A stretch of DNA of 64,000 nucleotides from Bryobacterales bacterium (GTDB taxonomy: Bacteria; Acidobacteriota; Terriglobia; Bryobacterales; UBA6623), in contig JAPPMC010000001.1 of the NCBI GenBank assembly GCA_028819235.1, forward strand, positions 62,001 through 126,000. Direction: 5' to 3'. The notes beneath the pieces were generated by a model. The model was not told where the DNA came from and ran no database searches. It was given only the letters and a program-made list of their open reading frames with translations. Below are positions 5,766 to 35,212 of this stretch, piece after piece. Position 1 is the first letter of the stretch. Each line of letters opens with the position of its first letter. The position numbers and the translations under genes were made by a program.

Positions 5766-6683
5766 GTGCATCGGCGTAAGTTCATTGCCTCTGGCATCGG
5801 AGCGACCTTTGCGGCCGCCTGTTCGATACACGATCCCCAAGGTCAGGCCCCAGTTCGCGAATCGATACCCGACGTCGTAGACTTCCACCAGCACACCAAC
5901 TACAGCGGCAGGGCAGACGACGCACTGGTCGCGCACCAGCGCACGCTGGGCGTCGACCTGACCGTCCTGCTGCCGGCGGGGTCCCGCTTTGGACTGGCGG
6001 CCGATGCGACCGGGAACGACGCAGTTGTCTCCTTGGCCCGGCGGCACCCGGACCGCTTCGTCTATTTCGCGAATGAGCTCCCCGACCTACCGGAGACCCA
6101 GCAAGTACTCGAGAAATACCTCGACATGGGCGCCAAGGGCATCGGAGAGCAGAAGTTCCCGGTGGAGTGCGATTCCGAGCCGATGCAGTTGGTCTACTCT
6201 ATCGCCCGCGACTATGCCGTTCCCGTGCTGATCCACTTCCAGCACGAGGCATACAACATGGGGATCGAGCGCTTTCACCGAATGCTGGAGAAGTTCCCGG
6301 ACGTGGATTTCATAGGCCACGCCCAGACTTGGTGGGGGAACATCGACGCGAACCACGAGCAAGCCGTGATGTACCCGAAGACTCCGGTCACGCAGGGCGG
6401 GATCACGGATCGCCTGCTGTCCGACTACCCGAACATGTACGGCGATCTGTCCGCCGGCTCCGGACTCAATTCCATGCTGCGGGACGAGGAGCACGCGATC
6501 GGATTCTTGGAGCGCCACCAGGACCGCCTACTGTGGGCCAGCGACTGCAACGACAGCGTCGGCGAGGGTGACACCTGCATCGGGTCCAAGGGCTTGGCGG
6601 CCGTGCGTCGGCTGGCCCAGGCTAGGGAAGTCGCTGGCAAGATTCTCTCCGGCAACGCTCTCCGATTGCTCAATCGGGCCTGA
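5766..6683 (+). CDS. Tat-exported amidohydrolase-like TIM-barrel metallohydrolase (lipoprotein)
   Basis: Member of the amidohydrolase-2 type metal-dependent hydrolases or decarboxylases, 305 residues. The GTG start at 5766 gives MHRRKFIASGIGATFAAACS, a twin-arginine signal followed by a lipobox-like AAAC, so export and lipid anchoring are likely. Metal-binding landmarks in order are VVDFHQHTNYSG (HxH on strand 1), KGIGEQKF (strand 3-4), VLIHFQHEA (strand 5 His), FIGHAQTWWG (strand 6 His) and LLWASDCND (strand 8 Asp). The ending GNALRLL is the usual C-terminal helix. The substrate cannot be read from sequence. It is transcribed toward the following DUF4143 ATPase but separated from it by 177 bases with its own control region. 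Confidence 0.85.
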   Translation: MHRRKFIASGIGATFAAACSIHDPQGQAPVRESIPDVVDFHQHTNYSGRADDALVAHQRTLGVDLTVLLPAGSRFGLAADATGNDAVVSLARRHPDRFVYFANELPDLPETQQVLEKYLDMGAKGIGEQKFPVECDSEPMQLVYSIARDYAVPVLIHFQHEAYNMGIERFHRMLEKFPDVDFIGHAQTWWGNIDANHEQAVMYPKTPVTQGGITDRLLSDYPNMYGDLSAGSGLNSMLRDEEHAIGFLERHQDRLLWASDCNDSVGEGDTCIGSKGLAAVRRLAQAREVAGKILSGNALRLLNRA

Positions 6684-6807
6684 GTTTGCTGCCCGGACCC
6701 TTCCGCTCCGAGCATCCCGCCCATCGCGACAGGCAGTGTCGGCGGTGTGCGCGGAGCCCGGTCCTCGCCCACTGCGGGCAGTAGGCCGCTTCCTGCGGGC
6801 CGTTATC

Positions 6808-6860
6808 ATGCTAATCAAAAATATGATTTTGACTTATACTATGTCAATAGTGCTAGCGAT
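6808..6860 (+). promoter_or_regulatory. AT-rich control region with inverted repeats before the DUF4143 ATPase
   Basis: An abrupt AT-rich patch in GC-rich DNA. It holds a 5-bp inverted repeat TTGAC-N9-GTCAA (6829-6847) just upstream of the ATG at 6861, and overlapping TCAAAA/TTTTGA arms (about 6815-6832). A TATACT at 6835-6840 could serve as -10. Likely operator/promoter of the ATPase gene; the exact promoter is inferred. Confidence 0.4.
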
Positions 6861-8489
6861 ATGATAATTCGAAATTTAAGATCCGAATTGCAGCAAGCGG
6901 CCACTTGGGCACCCTCAATAACGCTTACCGGCCCTAGGCAAAGCGGAAAGACGACGCTGTGCCGGTCGACATTCCCGAATCATCCTTACCGCTCCCTCGA
7001 GGAGCCCGACCAGCGGTCCTTCGCCCAAGAGGATCCACGGGGCTTTCTGGCGCAGTTCCCACGGGGCGCACTGCTAGACGAGGTGCAGAGGGTACCCGAC
7101 CTCCTTTCGTACCTCCAGAGCACCATCGACGAGGCCCCGGTCGCCGGCAGATGGATATTGACCGGGTCTCAGAACCTCGCGCTCTTGGAGTCGGTCAGCC
7201 AGTCGCTGGCCGGCAGGACGGCTATGCACCAGCTGCTACCTCTCTCTTGGGACGAGATCCGGCGCTTCCCAGAGCCTCCCGCGGACCTTGAGGAGGCCAT
7301 TTTCAAGGGAGGCTATCCCCGAATCTTCGACCGGCAGCTAGACCCGTCCGCGTGGCTCAGCTCCTACGTCGCCACCTACGTCGAGCGGGACGTGCGGCGG
7401 ATCACCCGCGTCGGGGACTTGTCTGCGTTCCAGCGCTTTGTGGAACTGTGTGCCGGCCGCACGGCGCAGCTGCTCAAATACTCCGGCTTGGCCAGCGACT
7501 GCGGGATCTCGCAGCCAACTGCGAAAGCATGGTTCAGCATCCTGGAGGCGGGATTCATCGCCTTTCACCTGCCGGCCTTCCACGCAAAGTTCCGCAGGCG
7601 CCTAGTGAAGATGCCCAGGCTCTACTTCTACGACACGGGGTTGGCCTGTTGGTTGCTGGGAATCCGCGAGCCGGGGCAACTCCGCACCCACCCCTTGCGC
7701 GGAGCACTGTTCGAGACTTGGGTCGTCTCGGAGGTCCTCAAGCATCGGACGCATTCCAGCCAGGCTGGTGGCCTTTCGTTCTACCGGGACAGCAATGGCG
7801 TCGAAGTCGACCTCGTTGTCGACGACCGTGACGCAGTGACCCTAATCGAGGCCAAGTCAGCTGCCACTCCTAGGTCCAGGCTGCTGAATAACGCGAGGCG
7901 CGTGCGGACGGTTCTAAGCGGGGTCCGCCCTAGGCCCGAGGTCGTCTTGGTGTACGGAGGCATTGACTTTCAACGGCGCTCTGACGCAAGGATCGTGCCA
8001 TGGCGCTCGGTGCGGACGGCGACGCCACCACAAGTTTCCTGGACGGTAGAGATCTTTGCCGGGTCCGGCCCGGTCTCCGGAGCCGACGTGTCGGCAATCC
8101 TGCCCGATGGCAGGAGGGTTGCGTCCGTCACGGGACTTGACGGCCGGGCGGACCTTGACCTGCCCGACGGGCATCATCCGCTGACCGTGCTGATCGCAAA
8201 GGACGGATTCGCTGGGCATGCCGAAATGGATTGGGTCCCTGACGAGTGCGCGTTGCATGTTCACTTGGCAAGGAAGGTGGCGGGCGGCTCGCGGATCGCA
8301 CAGACATCGCGCCCCGGGATGCAGGTGGAAGTTCGCGTCAAGGGTCAGTTGATTCGCGTCGAAGCCGCAGAGGGCGAAACTGCGGCTGCGGAACTCAAGA
8401 ATGGGGAGCAGGCGCTTGGCAAGACGCTGGCACTCAGGGTGAAGAAAGTCGTGGGCGACATTGCATTGCTCGAGTACTCCACAGCATGA
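6861..8489 (+). CDS. AAA_14/DUF4143 ATPase with C-terminal carboxypeptidase-regulatory-like tail
   Basis: Cytoplasmic P-loop ATPase of 542 residues. Walker A is GPRQSGKT (24-31), Walker B ALLDEVQ (70-76), and a sensor-like TGSQN lies at 101-105. The DUF4143 part follows, with YVERDVRRI, a winged-helix-like LASDCGISQPTAKAW segment and YFYDTGLACWLLG. It ends in a nuclease-like fold, ALFETWVVSEV, VEVDLVV and LIEAKSA, resembling an E-D-ExK arrangement. Unlike standard DUF4143 proteins (about 380-420 residues), about 140 more residues follow: PVSGADVSAILPDG, then GLDGRADLDLP and AKDGFAGH, a beta-sandwich of the carboxypeptidase-regulatory type, and a last domain ending VVGDIALLEY. The ATG at 6861 is preferred because the conserved N-terminus begins there. 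Function of the family is unproven; often accessory or mobile DNA. Confidence 0.85.
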   Translation: MIIRNLRSELQQAATWAPSITLTGPRQSGKTTLCRSTFPNHPYRSLEEPDQRSFAQEDPRGFLAQFPRGALLDEVQRVPDLLSYLQSTIDEAPVAGRWILTGSQNLALLESVSQSLAGRTAMHQLLPLSWDEIRRFPEPPADLEEAIFKGGYPRIFDRQLDPSAWLSSYVATYVERDVRRITRVGDLSAFQRFVELCAGRTAQLLKYSGLASDCGISQPTAKAWFSILEAGFIAFHLPAFHAKFRRRLVKMPRLYFYDTGLACWLLGIREPGQLRTHPLRGALFETWVVSEVLKHRTHSSQAGGLSFYRDSNGVEVDLVVDDRDAVTLIEAKSAATPRSRLLNNARRVRTVLSGVRPRPEVVLVYGGIDFQRRSDARIVPWRSVRTATPPQVSWTVEIFAGSGPVSGADVSAILPDGRRVASVTGLDGRADLDLPDGHHPLTVLIAKDGFAGHAEMDWVPDECALHVHLARKVAGGSRIAQTSRPGMQVEVRVKGQLIRVEAAEGETAAAELKNGEQALGKTLALRVKKVVGDIALLEYSTA

Positions 8490-30538: not shown

Positions 30539-30760
30539 ATGGACGCGATGAACAGCCTGCCCGAACGGATCATGGAGTACACCGAGGCCAAGCCGGACGC
30601 CACGCCGATACAGGCGGACGACCTTCTGCCCTTCGGAGACCGGGCAGCGGTGGCTCGGGCGCAATCTCGCCTCGCCCGCTCGGACCGGCTCATGCGGATC
30701 TGGCGTGGCGTCTACATGCGCCCGTGCTCGGCAAGGCCGCCGCCGACTCCAGTCGGCTAA
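30539..30760 (+). pseudogene. DUF6088 (AbiEi-like antitoxin) N-terminal fragment
   Basis: A 73-codon frame whose first 60 residues fit the DUF6088/type IV TA AbiEi-like winged-helix start: SLPERIMEYTEAKPDATPIQADDLL, then FGDRAAVARAQSRLARSDRLMRIWRGVYMRP. Full family members continue for 130 or more residues after GVYxRP; here the frame ends after 13 unrelated residues. No partner nucleotidyltransferase (AbiEii-type) is found downstream. Probably a truncated relic in an accessory patch. A DNA-binding function of the fragment alone cannot be excluded. Confidence 0.6.
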
Positions 30761-31461
30761 CTGCCACTGTCCCGCTGGCGCACTGTGTGGACGGACCATT
30801 TCGCGGCGGCCTGCCGTAGCTGTGGGCACAGCACGGCGCAGATTCCGGCCGCGTCCACTGCGATTCTTCCTAGGGATGCCAGCAACCCTCGGCTGCTGCC
30901 CGTGGCGCTCCGACGCTGGCTCGTTTCCCTTGTTTCCGGAGCCCCTGCAGAGCGGGCAGCAACAAGCCGATGGAATGGGGCCAGCTCCGGGCGGATGTCG
31001 ACCCGCTCGGTGACGCCCTCAAGGGCGTCGAGGACTGCCGGAGATCCACGCCGTTGGTGGGCCTGCCCTTCTGTCCAAGGCTTTGCGCGAGTGCTGCCAC
31101 GGGAAACGCAAGACCGCGCTTGGCCGCGCTCAGCCATGGGCCCTGCCACTAGCGAAGCTGGGCCGACCGAGAATCCGGGGCAGCGATTGTTTGCCCATGC
31201 AAGGAACTGTGCCAGCGGGAGCGGCCCGACCGCTGCTGCCTGCGCCGGTCGCGCCGCCCGCGCATGAAGTGGAGCAATCGCAAGGCCGCCGATCCCCCGA
31301 CCGCAGCCTGAACGCACCCCGTCTTGACGCCAATCGCCAGCGCTTAAACGAATTCACTTCCATCCTCAAACGAACACCGTCGAATGCTCCCGGACCGAGT
31401 GTTTACACTCGCGCAATGGGATGGTCGCAGGTAGCCGCTCCGGCCGGCCTACGTCGAAGGC
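30761..31461. other. Intergenic stretch inside the accessory patch
   Basis: About 700 bases after the DUF6088 fragment. Several open frames exist on both strands, but they read as Arg/Ala/Gly-rich GC noise. No domain, repeat or insertion sequence was recognised; likely decayed DNA. Confidence 0.35.
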
Positions 31462-31507
31462 TTGCATCACGGGCCGTTTCGGCTCCTATAATTGCTGGAG
31501 GCGGGAG
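31462..31507 (+). promoter_or_regulatory. Promoter and ribosome binding site of the DUF4160-DUF2442 pair
   Basis: A perfect -10 TATAAT at 31487-31492 is preceded after 19 bases by TTGCAT (31462-31467). GGAG at 31497-31500 and GGGAG at 31503-31507 lie directly before the TTG at 31511. This layout supports the unusual TTG start and a very short leader. Confidence 0.5.
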
Positions 31508-31510
31508 CTG

Positions 31511-31771
31511 TTGCCGGAGATCAGCCGTTTTCTCGGAATCGTTATCGCGATGTACTACAACGATCACGGGCCGGCGCACTTCCATGCAAGGTACGGAGAC
31601 AGGGTGGTTCGAATCGCAATTGAGGACGGACGAGTTTTGTCAGGCGAGTTTCCGCGCAGGGCAAGAGGTCTCGTCCTGGAGTGGTTGGAATTGCACCGCG
31701 ATGAATTGCGGGCAGACTGGTTACTGGCCAAGCAAAGGAAGCCGCTCAAGAAGATCACGCCGCTGGAATAG
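31511..31771 (+). CDS. DUF4160 protein (putative toxin-antitoxin component)
   Basis: 86 residues in the full DUF4160 form: PEISRFLGIVIAMYYNDHGPAHFHARYGD with the conserved N-D-H-x-P-x-H-x-H cluster, then IAIEDGRVLSGEFPRRARGLVLEW and a C-terminal helix ending PLKKI. The family starts at MPEIS; here that methionine position is TTG, supported by the GGGAG ribosome binding site three bases upstream. It is followed after four bases by a DUF2442 gene, the usual partner, and such pairs are annotated as toxin-antitoxin-like modules without proven mechanism. No lesion is visible, unlike the other toxin-antitoxin relics in this window. Confidence 0.85.
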   Translation: MPEISRFLGIVIAMYYNDHGPAHFHARYGDRVVRIAIEDGRVLSGEFPRRARGLVLEWLELHRDELRADWLLAKQRKPLKKITPLE

Positions 31772-31775
31772 GGAG

Positions 31776-32045
31776 ATGACACCAAGACTCGCGCGGGCAG
31801 AGTATCTGCGGGACTACAAGATCCACGTGACGTTCGACGATGGCCTCCAGGGGATCATTGACTTGGAGGACGAACTGTGGGGAGAGGTGTTCGAGCCCTT
31901 AAAGAACACCGATGTCTTCCGGCGCTTTCGGGTGGACCGCGAACTGGACACCATTGTGTGGCCCACCGGTGCCGATCTGGCGCCTGAATTCCTCCGCGAA
32001 CGGGCGATTCTCAGTCCGCTCGCATACTGCACTGGCAGCTGTTGA
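31776..32045 (+). CDS. DUF2442 protein, partner of DUF4160
   Basis: 89 residues. The family core is ARAEYLRDYKIHVTFDDG, then IIDLEDELWGEVFEPLKN, FRRFRVDRELDTIVWPTGADLAPEFL. This is the classical DUF2442 pattern (L-x-V-x-F-D-G, then D-L-x-P-E-x-L) found as the second gene after DUF4160. The ATG at 31776 sits five bases after the DUF4160 stop, with GGGAG in the gap, so they form an operon. A role as antitoxin or DNA-binding partner is proposed for the family but not shown. Intact length and reading frame. Confidence 0.85.
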   Translation: MTPRLARAEYLRDYKIHVTFDDGLQGIIDLEDELWGEVFEPLKNTDVFRRFRVDRELDTIVWPTGADLAPEFLRERAILSPLAYCTGSC

Positions 32046-32632
32046 ACGGATGTCGCTCGCCAGCTGACGCGATTGGATCCCGGCGCACGCGGACAATTCC
32101 GGGAGTAGACTCAGAAGTTATAGAGAGCTGTCGAGTTCGAGCCGCACACTGCTGGTTCGGGAGGGGCTGCACCTCGCGGGCTGGCAAGAGGCCGTGCAGC
32201 TGCGGGTGCGCTGGGACAGCTACATGGTCGAGACCAGCGTGGAGTACTCCGCGGACCATCGGCCGGTGCGGGACGCGCTGGTGGGCATGGTGTGAGAAGC
32301 CGCCGTGCAGTGCGGCGCTGCCCGCGTGCCTGGCTGGAGGCTTGATGCGCACTGGAAGGGGAAGGTTGAGAAGCCGTTTCGTGTCCGATGAATGTCGAGA
32401 CTGGGCACGACAAGGGCTTTGTCGCGGGGCGAGAGGGACTCTACGGCAACAGCGCAAGTGGACGGGTAGCGGTGTCAATCAGCCAACCAAGTGGCGCAAG
32501 GGCCTGACTCATTGTCTGGCGTTGTCGCCGTCGCGGCGCTAGCGAGCACCCCCCGCTCCGCGTCAGGAAAGGTCGCGTGTGTAGAAGATCAGCGACAAGG
32601 CTGTAAGCGGTCCCGATTTCCCCCAGGCAAAT
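32046..32632. other. Intergenic stretch, no gene supported
   Basis: Nearly 590 bases between DUF2442 and the HipB-like gene, transcribed convergently. A short plus-strand reading around 32130-32296 (LLVREGLHLAGWQEAVQLRV) looks protein-like but has no start and no known family; it could be a decayed gene. Confidence 0.3.
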
Positions 32633-32932
32633 TCAATAGTTGGAGAGGCAGGTTAGCATTTGGGGCTGAATCGGCCCTTGGTAGCTGTGGCGCGGGAGGA
32701 TGACAACTTCCAGTCCAAGCAACCGCAGGCCGTGGATTGCCTTTCCGATCTCGGCTGTTTCCTTTCCTCTCTCGAGCTCGGACAGGAAGCGCATGCTGAG
32801 GTTGGCGAAACCAGAGAGCTTCTCCAAGGTCCAGCCCGCCTTCTTGCGATGGGAGCGCATGATCTGGCCAGGTTCGCGTGTCGACCGGACGAATCCGTAC
32901 TCCGGCAGATCGTTCCGTGCATCTGTGGGCAT
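32633..32932 (-). CDS. HipB-like XRE-family transcriptional regulator, orphan
   Basis: 99 residues. Helix-turn-helix of the Xre/HipB type: IMRSHRKKAGWTLEKLSGFANLSMRFLSELERGK, followed by GKAIHGLRLLGLEVVILPR, the dimerisation segment typical of HipB antitoxins. In HipBA systems a HipA kinase gene follows directly; none is present downstream here, so it is an orphan or a stand-alone regulator. Two palindromic sites (TTCCCGTACGGGAA and a 12/14 copy) lie just upstream of its start at 32932, the nearer one only seven bases away, which strongly suggests autorepression. Start chosen at ATG 32932 for the full conserved region. It lies 234 bases beyond the end of the nuclease-like gene and could regulate that operon. 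Confidence 0.82.
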   Translation of the reverse strand: MPTDARNDLPEYGFVRSTREPGQIMRSHRKKAGWTLEKLSGFANLSMRFLSELERGKETAEIGKAIHGLRLLGLEVVILPRHSYQGPIQPQMLTCLSNY

Positions 32933-32938
32933 CTGTTC

Positions 32939-33002
32939 TTATCGTACGGGAAATCTAGAGGCCATAGGCCACCCCAACCGGCGACCAATTCCCGTACGGG
33001 AA
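32939..33002 (-). promoter_or_regulatory. Pair of palindromic operator sites upstream of the XRE regulator
   Basis: A perfect 14-bp palindrome TTCCCGTACGGGAA lies at 32989-33002. A second copy, TTATCGTACGGGAA (12 of 14 identical), lies at 32939-32952; the centres are 50 bases apart, about five helical turns. The nearer copy would cover the ribosome binding region of the regulator gene. Presumed binding sites of the HipB-like protein. Confidence 0.6.
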
Positions 33003-33166
33003 CGGACGGGATTAGGCGCAGAACTCAACCGTCAGAACCTTTCTGGCCGAGAGCAGCACACTCTCAGCGACGTGCCATATGGCAGTAGTGGCCAGCGGCC
33101 CCGCTCAGTGTCAGTCGGAGATGGGGAGCCGGATGCGCCCGGTGGGCGACACACTCGGCCCCAAGA

Positions 33167-33656
33167 TCAGCCCTCACCCGGTTGATACTGATCAAGACCC
33201 AGTACTGGAGCAAGCTCTTCGCCGCAAAGGACTACCCGGACCGGCTCCTCGCGGCCTCTGAAGGCGACTCGCTCACGAAGCTCGCGCCGAGTTAACATCG
33301 AGAACTTGTTTAGCGCCGCAACAGGTCGGAATCTAGTCACTTGCCCGGTCGCCACATGTCGGTCCGACTCGTCTGCCCCCGCCTGCAGCTGCCTCACCAC
33401 CTCCTGCCGCCACTTCGTCTTGACCTCCACGGGGGCAGCCAAGAAAAGCGATTTCCCGTCGCCAGCGAACACCAAGTAGTCGCAGCGCACGGACTGCTCG
33501 TCCAACGGAGATCGGAGATCCTGGGAGGTCCAGATCAATCAGCAACTGCGGTTCAGGCAGGCCGACCAAGCTGATTTCGCAGGTGTCACGTCTCAACCTG
33601 TCAACAATGCACTCGCTGTCGAAGTCCCGACGGATTCGGTCGATTGGACCCGTCAC
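33167..33656 (-). pseudogene. Small PD-(D/E)XK-like nuclease partner of the OLD-like ATPase, disrupted by a 7-bp duplication
   Basis: Two overlapping frames form one protein. Frame one starts at ATG 33656 (MTGPIDRIRRDFDSECIVDRL, then EPQLLIDLDLPGSP). Frame two continues LDEQSVRCDYLVFAGDG, AAPVEVKTKW, VVRQLQAGA, TRFRPVAAL to the stop at 33167. Deleting one copy of the tandem GGAGATC at 33507-33520 joins them exactly into 160 residues. The repaired protein shows Asp57 in RCDYL and Glu75-x-Lys77 in PVEVK, an arrangement like PD-(D/E)XK nucleases. The start overlaps the stop of the upstream ATPase gene in ATGA (33653-33656), so the two are translationally coupled. As written the product is truncated after the duplication. 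Confidence 0.7.
33507..33520 (+). repeat. Perfect 7-bp tandem duplication causing a frameshift
   Basis: GGAGATC occurs twice in tandem inside the small nuclease-like gene. Seven extra bases shift the reading frame; removal of one unit restores an uninterrupted gene with a family-like junction (PGSPLDEQ). Fits replication slippage, a recent inactivation or a reversible switch. Confidence 0.85.
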
Positions 33657-35212
33657 TCGGACTCCCCCGCCCGGGACTCGATTTCTGCCCAGCGATTGTG
33701 GAGATCCACGGCGACTTCATCGAACTCCGAAGGATACATCCCATCGCCATCCATCTTTACCTCCTCGACGACCACCCCCTTGGTGGCCCCGTCAGGAAAG
33801 AAGCGCCAAGCCCCAACTTGCTGCTCGGGAAGGGCAGGGGCTACGACACCGTCAGGGCCGTTGCCTCCGTCGATGCGTGACGCCTGCACGATGTTCGCGA
33901 GTCCCGTTAGAATCCACTCGCTGTGAGTGGTGACGATTATGCGGACCCCTTCTCTCACGACTCTTGCCAACAGATTGATCACTTGGACCTGCATCGCGGG
34001 ATGCAGGTGCGACTCTGGCTCCTCGACGATCAACACGTCGCCCGTCCGCACGACATGGCGCAGGTAGAGAACCAATGGAGCAAGTTCGGAAACCATGGAA
34101 GACGACCTCATCAGGACAAGATCGCTAGACCATCCGTCTGGACGATAGAAGAACTGAGGATAGTTCGTTTCGGATGCGTCCACTCGAACGGTGCCCCCGA
34201 GGATGTCCCGCTCAAGTTGCGAGGCGACGCCACTTCGGATGCCACGCGCCGGCTCTGCACCAATCCAGTCCCCCATCCGGATGAGTACGTCGAGGAAGTC
34301 CGTCAGTACACCGGAGAGCTTCGGAACGTCCGGCGTTCGTCGCAGTCCAGCCGAGGCCGCGCTTTGCACTATCGCGCTTACGACCATCTTGTGGATGTGC
34401 ATGATCCCCGTCCGGTCTGCAGGGAGGTAGTAGGCCATCCGTGCCAGCGGGGCGACCAAGTCTTGCCTTTGCGATTCGACCAGCCATTCGAGAAGCTGTC
34501 TTGCAATCGCAGTTCGCCGACCCGGACTTCCGGCGCCGCCTGATTCGTCGGACGCCGAGTGCAACCAGACCTCTAGTCTGCTAGGTTGCAGCCAAAGCCA
34601 TGACCCGACCGCCGAAGCACTGCGACTGCTGGGATCAGGGGATCCGAGAACCTCACCCTCCATCTCGAGCTCATCTCCGGACATTCGGACGCTGTAGCTC
34701 AAAGATCCCCGGTTCCTGAATCCATCCGGGGAAAGTACGATCTTCGCCCTGCCCGTGCCAAGTTGACGGATAAGTTCCCTAGTGCCGCCGCTTCCAAACG
34801 ACCGGACGATTTCCTCTTGGAGCAAGTCGGCCATACGGTCCGCGTTCTCGATCCCCATGCGAACCATCTCAAGCACGCGTTCAGACCGACGGGGAGGATC
34901 ACGGTCCTCGATGACGGCCGACATCCACGATTCAAGCTCGCTTAGTGCTTCTGGTTCTGGAGTCCATGCTGGTTTGCGGACGGCAGTACCGGTATACCTC
35001 TTAAAGACGTACCAAGAGGGGTCCCTGCTGGCCGCAAAGTGGCGATGTACCGCATAGCTCAATGTCGCGAAGTACGATTTGCCCGTATTGCTCGGTCCCA
35101 CGAAGACCGTTAGCGGACGAAACTCGACATTGGCGTGTTCGATGGGGCCGAAGTCGCTGACCTGAATGCGGTAGTTCCGAGCGTCTCCAGAATCTCTGTC
35201 GCTACTTTCCAT
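33653..35212 (-). CDS. AAA ATPase of the OLD/RecF-like (AAA_15/AAA_21) group
   Basis: 519 residues from the ATG at 35212. It has the ABC-type ATPase layout: YRIQVSDFGPIEHANVEF and VFVGPSNTGKSYFATL (Walker A, 39-46) at the N-terminus. SSMVSELAPLVLYLRHV serves as signature region, VLIVEEPESHLHPAM as Walker B (from 393), and IIVTTHSEWIL carries the switch histidine (430). About 330 residues of mostly helical insertion separate the halves. No TOPRIM nuclease domain follows, unlike classical OLD proteins; instead a separate small PD-(D/E)XK-like gene overlaps the stop (ATGA). ATPase plus nuclease-like partner suggests a two-gene defence or DNA-processing system. An upstream extension of 38 codons is possible but not conserved in character. 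Confidence 0.85.
   Translation of the reverse strand: MESSDRDSGDARNYRIQVSDFGPIEHANVEFRPLTVFVGPSNTGKSYFATLSYAVHRHFAASRDPSWYVFKRYTGTAVRKPAWTPEPEALSELESWMSAVIEDRDPPRRSERVLEMVRMGIENADRMADLLQEEIVRSFGSGGTRELIRQLGTGRAKIVLSPDGFRNRGSLSYSVRMSGDELEMEGEVLGSPDPSSRSASAVGSWLWLQPSRLEVWLHSASDESGGAGSPGRRTAIARQLLEWLVESQRQDLVAPLARMAYYLPADRTGIMHIHKMVVSAIVQSAASAGLRRTPDVPKLSGVLTDFLDVLIRMGDWIGAEPARGIRSGVASQLERDILGGTVRVDASETNYPQFFYRPDGWSSDLVLMRSSSMVSELAPLVLYLRHVVRTGDVLIVEEPESHLHPAMQVQVINLLARVVREGVRIIVTTHSEWILTGLANIVQASRIDGGNGPDGVVAPALPEQQVGAWRFFPDGATKGVVVEEVKMDGDGMYPSEFDEVAVDLHNRWAEIESRAGESE

Follow-up and report, generated by a model that had tools for sequence, protein, structure and literature searches.

A complete ORF on the minus strand of the 64-kb stretch of DNA analysed here (the window) begins with ATG at position 35212, ends at 33653, and encodes a 519-amino-acid ABC ATPase of the OLD/Rad50 type. 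Its motifs read exactly as a first-pass annotation of this DNA had given them. The Walker A sequence GPSNTGKS (residues 39 to 46; 35075 to 35098, minus strand) is near-invariant among 49 relatives. The Walker B region VLIVEEPESHLHP (residues 393 to 405; 33998 to 34036, minus strand) includes EEPESHLHP at residues 397 to 405, of which E398, P399, H404 and P405 are invariant in the same relatives, as are T428, T429, H430 and S431 of the H-loop TTHSEW (residues 428 to 433; 33914 to 33931, minus strand). Pfam assigns the protein to AAA_15 (1.7e-17) and also to AAA_21. The scan detected no TOPRIM domain, as the first-pass annotation had said, and only a short C-terminal segment lies beyond the ATPase core. 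An AlphaFold2 model built from the 49 relatives (mean pLDDT 83) has a predicted fold whose Foldseek matches are PtuA, Rad50 and SMC heads, with E-values down to 1e-10, and RecN is also among them. The protein resembles the sensor-like subunits WonA, PD-T4-4_A and PDC-M47A discussed below.

The TGA stop of the ATPase gene shares four base pairs, GTGA (33653 to 33656, minus strand), with the GTG start of a second gene, an arrangement indicative of translational coupling. This overlap had been noted before, with ATG as the start codon instead of GTG. The second gene had been described as encoding a 160-residue partner, with a hint of damage only in a reference to the "repaired partner"; in fact its reading frame is lost after ~45 codons through a perfect tandem duplication of 7 bp (33507 to 33520; minus-strand sequence GATCTCC GATCTCC). 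The 5' part (33521 to 33656, minus strand) encodes residues 1 to 45 in one frame and contains an invariant cysteine within DTCEISL. The 3' part (33167 to 33506, minus strand) continues in a second frame and carries the PD-(D/E)XK core, which consists of RCDY (Asp57), E75-V-K77 with the catalytic lysine of such nucleases, and QLQAGA, followed by a terminal LCG and a stop codon. The Asp57 and Glu75-x-Lys77 residues of the first-pass annotation are thus present, provided that the frameshift is bridged. Against a profile derived from independent relatives, the two halves reach 37 and 75 bits, so their resemblance to the family is not a chance one. No Pfam family matches the partner, and neither half matches a PADLOC B-subunit model. 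The duplication is missing at the equivalent place in a relative that is 69% identical (L003). Programmed frameshifting was considered and seems unlikely, as no slippery sequence was seen by eye and the relatives are unbroken. As sequenced, the locus can yield the ATPase alone and should give no protection.

When a single protein from the window was used as the search query, no related loci were found, but an alignment of six relatives was successful as a query. The relatives examined comprise six related ATPases and 79 loci in named genomes, one of which (L061) is identical to G002:C466 of Bryobacterales bacterium jk18x25bins.29; this match puts the genus of the window in the Acidobacteriota. 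Of the 79 best relatives from named genomes, 68 have both genes intact and side by side, as do 70 of all 87 places examined. In most relatives a gene of 150 to 180 residues lies directly 3' of the ATPase gene, and an ATGA or GTGA overlap like that of the window is common. Among 61 intact partners, C25, D56 and E74 are invariant, and C143 (60/61), Q88 (55/61) and K76 (53/61) are nearly so. The window's half-genes retain equivalents of all six positions, and every residue that is invariant in the family is kept, spread across the two frames. Divergence of the ATPase is correlated with that of the partner (Spearman 0.65 over 59 loci; none of 999 permutations was as high). The conserved adjacency and the correlated divergence imply that the two genes travel and evolve as one unit. 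That two unrelated genes merely happen to be neighbours is virtually out of the question: this idea has in its favour only the partner's lack of Pfam matches, and it is contradicted by a pairing that is conserved, mostly with the 4-bp overlap, in at least 14 phyla, and by the correlated divergence. The locus therefore represents a real, conserved two-gene operon that encodes an OLD/RecF-type ATPase and a PD-(D/E)XK protein.

The predicted structure of an intact partner from a Gemmatimonadota relative (L043; ATPase 5947 to 7533, partner 7530 to 7991) also agrees with this assignment. Its AlphaFold2 model is confident (pLDDT 96), and the elements follow the order strand (with the Asp), strand (ExK), helix (Gln), strand. 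The top Foldseek matches are mostly restriction and repair endonucleases, among them BsmI, FokI, EndoMS, Bse634I, EcoO109I and SgrAI, with weak E-values of which the best is 0.026. The comparison with PD-(D/E)XK folds that had been proposed as a check of the partner thus gives a restriction-endonuclease-like prediction. Cysteines C20, C25, C55 and C143 (L043 numbering) are conserved in partners of this clade, which suggests a metal site or a structural link.

The surroundings of the pair differ from one locus to another. In the window, a gene for a small HTH protein similar to HipB/Xre repressors lies downstream (32633 to 32932, minus strand; Pfam HTH_31 at 5.7e-4, below the cut-off). We regard it as a neighbour, without implying membership in the system. 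Just upstream of this gene are two inverted-repeat copies of CGTACGGGAA (32941 to 33002), one of them inside the palindrome TTCCCGTACGGGAA, and this CGTACGGGAA/TTCCCGTACGGGAA site is likely the operator of the HTH gene. Further downstream, a DUF4160 gene and the DUF2442 domain that comes after it (31421 to 32045) form a toxin-antitoxin-like pair, a short fragment similar to AbiEi/DUF6088 (30539 to 30760) falls below the Pfam cut-off, and an amidase is encoded upstream of the pair. The toxin-antitoxin patch that had been described around the locus is therefore broadly real, but only partly preserved. Neighbours of the relatives are mostly ordinary, unrelated genes. A minority are defence genes (Pycsar cyclase, AbiU, HEC and methyltransferases), as found in a PADLOC neighbour scan that is descriptive and has no control set; the enrichment near defence genes that had been anticipated is accordingly weak. 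Because neighbours differ between loci, the two genes themselves appear to be the moving unit. These differences, together with a patchy distribution (the locus occurs in 6 of the order's 257 genomes), rule out a housekeeping locus at a fixed place, the outcome that had been named as a possible refutation.

Several known systems can be set aside. Class 1 OLD proteins have a fused C-terminal TOPRIM nuclease, which the Pfam scan did not find here. Gabija is excluded on two grounds, since the ATPase lacks the TOPRIM fusion of GajA and the partner is not a UvrD-like helicase such as GajB. PARIS is excluded because no partner matches the DUF4435 family of AriB. The claim that the pairing differs from OLD, Gabija and PARIS is therefore correct. 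Septu PtuAB and the retron Ec78 effector provide the top Foldseek matches of the window's ATPase fold, but PtuB is an HNH nuclease, whereas the partner here has a PD-(D/E)XK motif and predicted fold, which rules out Septu.

The further claim that the system is of an uncharacterised type does not survive comparison with three others of the same layout, two of which, PD-T4-4 and PDC-M47, have PADLOC models that match both genes of the clade. PD-T4-4 of E. coli (Vassallo et al. 2022, PMC9519451) is listed as a PD-(D/E)XK nuclease paired with an AAA ATPase (PMC10952713). It has the same two-gene layout, and its PD-T4-4_A model matches the window's ATPase at 2.8e-28, while PDC-M47A does so at 2e-28; both matches are confined to motif stretches at the N and C termini. 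For comparison, the true PD-T4-4 pair on an E. coli plasmid matches its own models at 8e-232 (A, over the whole length) and 2e-94 (B). The PD-T4-4 partner differs in being ~210 amino acids long, in having a D-x-K motif, and in lacking the Cys25 and Cys143 of clade partners. PDC-M47, a phage-defence candidate in PADLOC, is the best or near-best match there for both genes of the clade, but it is a candidate system only, and its partner matches are partial and weak, with none for the broken partner of the window. Among the 61 intact clade partners, up to 23 match one PDC-M47B model and three match PD-T4-4_B, the best at 2.7e-7.

The third system, WonAB, comes from the WASA-1 prophage of Vibrio cholerae and has been studied by mutation and mechanism (Nat Microbiol 2025, PMC12137116). 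Its ATPase is an ABC protein of the OLD type that lacks TOPRIM, and the partner is a small PD-(D/E)xK protein. Neither gene is dispensable, point mutants of the ATPase and of the nuclease are inactive, and the catalytic lysine is essential (PMC12137116). WonAB aborts infection by halting translation while host DNA stays intact, and overproduction of WonB relative to WonA is toxic (PMC12137116). The window's clade shares the two-gene operon with the ATPase first and an overlapping small PD-(D/E)XK gene. It differs in being far in sequence, as judged through a Vibrio phage homologue across a fully supported long branch, in the extra invariant cysteines of its partner, and in its apparent occurrence in sponge-associated cells as opposed to a prophage. 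The broken partner of the window also departs from the two intact subunits of WonAB, which do have counterparts in 68 of the 79 named relatives. An operon that joins an OLD-ABC ATPase to a novel restriction endonuclease (reference 33 in PMC12137116) is, as far as it is described there, the same pairing with a variant restriction-enzyme fold. In short, the architecture is not new. A pair resembling PD-T4-4 and WonAB also lies directly behind a CI repressor gene in the Peduoviridae member Vibrio phage 1.202.O (L123, 460 to 3195), a placement in line with that published for WonAB, which lies downstream of a regulator.

What is new, judging by sequence comparison, is the clade. In an ATPase tree, 50 rows including the window group together and are separated by a fully supported long branch from the pairs of E. 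coli, a Vibrio phage and Enterococcus; the outgroups themselves have long branches, and caution is warranted on that account. Neither the E. coli (PD-T4-4) partner nor that of the Vibrio phage has the Cys25 and Cys143 of clade partners. The 79 named loci span at least 14 phyla, and eight of them are from Poribacteria. Many belong by name to sponge-derived bins (APA, CAR, COS, IRC and RHO), whose abbreviations presumably stand for the sponges studied by Robbins et al. (PMC8163846), if we have matched them to species correctly. For part of the set, sponge origin was taken from isolate names, and literature searches found no host information for jk18x, p16x, OY282, OX638 and similar sets. Even so, there are strong grounds to infer that members of the clade are mainly symbionts of marine sponges, bacteria in which CRISPR and restriction systems are reported to be enriched and lateral transfer to occur (PMC8163846). 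The tree and the named relatives together give the appearance of horizontal spread among such bacteria. Spread by phages was not seen, as searches of 2.9 million viral contigs and of phage and plasmid records returned only distant relatives and no clade members.

The genus to which the window belongs contains five copies of the clade (the window, one each in G001 and G007, and two in G002). They occupy at least four separate places in the ATPase tree, making several acquisitions likely. All five ATPase genes are open and all five partners are broken, each differently. The window has its 7-bp duplication; L003 has a frameshift, a stop codon and a lost ExK lysine; L007 has a C-terminal frameshift; L004 is truncated by a neighbouring gene; and L005, which lies near a contig end, has lost everything beyond the Asp strand. 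Broken partners beside intact ATPases are otherwise found at 9 of 79 loci (Fisher 6e-5, or 3e-4 without the contig-end copies). This contrast was noticed after the fact, among loci found through their ATPase, and we treat it as no more than a lead. Between the window and L003, dN/dS is 0.40 for the ATPase and 0.48 for the partner (bootstrap 0.29 to 0.76). These similar values indicate that the breaks are young, and they give no sign of extra constraint on the ATPase after the nuclease was lost. The simplest account is that the self-toxic effector is lost first. Two partner relics without a detectable ATPase occur in the same genus, one frameshifted (L116, G007:C112, 4221 to 4615) and one at a contig end (L115, G007:C156, 4370 to 4603). 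The window's own genome additionally contains a second, intact and more distant pair of an ATPase and a PD-(D/E)XK protein (L117, G000:C102, ~31850 to 33830), whose partner matches PDC-M47B at 1e-7 and which is related to L120 (G002) and L121 (G007).

We therefore propose, with a probability of roughly 0.78, that the window's pair is a degenerate representative of the two-gene systems for abortive infection exemplified by WonAB, PD-T4-4 and PDC-M47, from a distinct, divergent clade that has spread horizontally. The anti-phage role suggested by the first-pass annotation is very probable. If intact members resemble WonAB, the ABC ATPase would dimerise on ATP, the dimer would sense a state triggered by phage, and it would then license the co-translated PD-(D/E)XK protein. 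The nuclease would then cut a nucleic acid essential for growth, probably a structural RNA if WonB is a guide, and cleavage would stop translation and abort the infection. In the window, the duplication would have inactivated the nuclease, so that only the ATPase can be made. The transfer of this mechanism over such a distance in sequence is uncertain, given that the PD-T4-4_A and PDC-M47A matches are limited to ATPase motifs near the two ends of the protein.

A different role for the pair, in restriction of invading DNA or repair of broken ends rather than as an abortive-infection toxin, is conceivable but doubtful. Rad50, RecN and PtuA among the matches of the ATPase fold would suit such a module, as would DNA restriction enzymes and EndoMS/NucS among those of the partner. 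However, WonAB, the closest architecture studied, spares host DNA and blocks translation (PMC12137116), and the presence of the pair in so few genomes of the order speaks against housekeeping repair. It is less probable that the living organism has an undamaged partner and a functional WonAB-like system, and that the frameshift arises from assembly or from variation in the population. In favour of this reading, one event accounts for the lesion, the two frames between them keep all invariant residues, and the effector's dN/dS, near that of the ATPase, indicates recent loss. An assembly artefact could in principle create the duplication. Yet a perfect 7-bp repeat is atypical as a sequencing error and is a classical slippage mutation instead of a homopolymer error; only three perfect 7-bp tandem pairs start in the entire window, with ~0.02 expected within a partner-sized gene; and the genus's four remaining copies are broken too, each in its own way.

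We also considered that the ATPase is retained for a job of its own after repeated loss of the nuclease, for example as a decoy or antidote against intact copies, as a regulator, or as a domesticated sensor. The genus contrast and the at least four separate acquisitions speak for this idea, and the toxicity of excess WonB indicates that ATPase-like subunits can matter for safety (PMC12137116). We nevertheless find it improbable, as the comparison is post hoc and depends on loci found by their ATPase, the dN/dS of the ATPase is not clearly below that of the partner, and recent loss of a costly toxin produces the same pattern. A broader version of the idea, which we offer as a long shot, is that a sponge-confined WonAB-like clade circulates as a bare two-gene unit in at least 14 phyla and was acquired at least four times by one Bryobacterales genus, which disarmed the nuclease each time and kept the ATPase as antidote, decoy or sensor.

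With the degenerate-copy reading preferred, the locus falls in a known defence family, as a disarmed member of one of its divergent variants; in itself it is probably a relic, and a sober lesson. The clade to which it belongs links apparently habitat-bound bacteria, sponge symbionts of many phyla, with a branch of their own within an abortive-infection family described only recently, and it offers 68 intact pairs that are ready for testing. The disarmed copies in one genus form a natural series, through which the cost of carrying a suicide system becomes directly testable.
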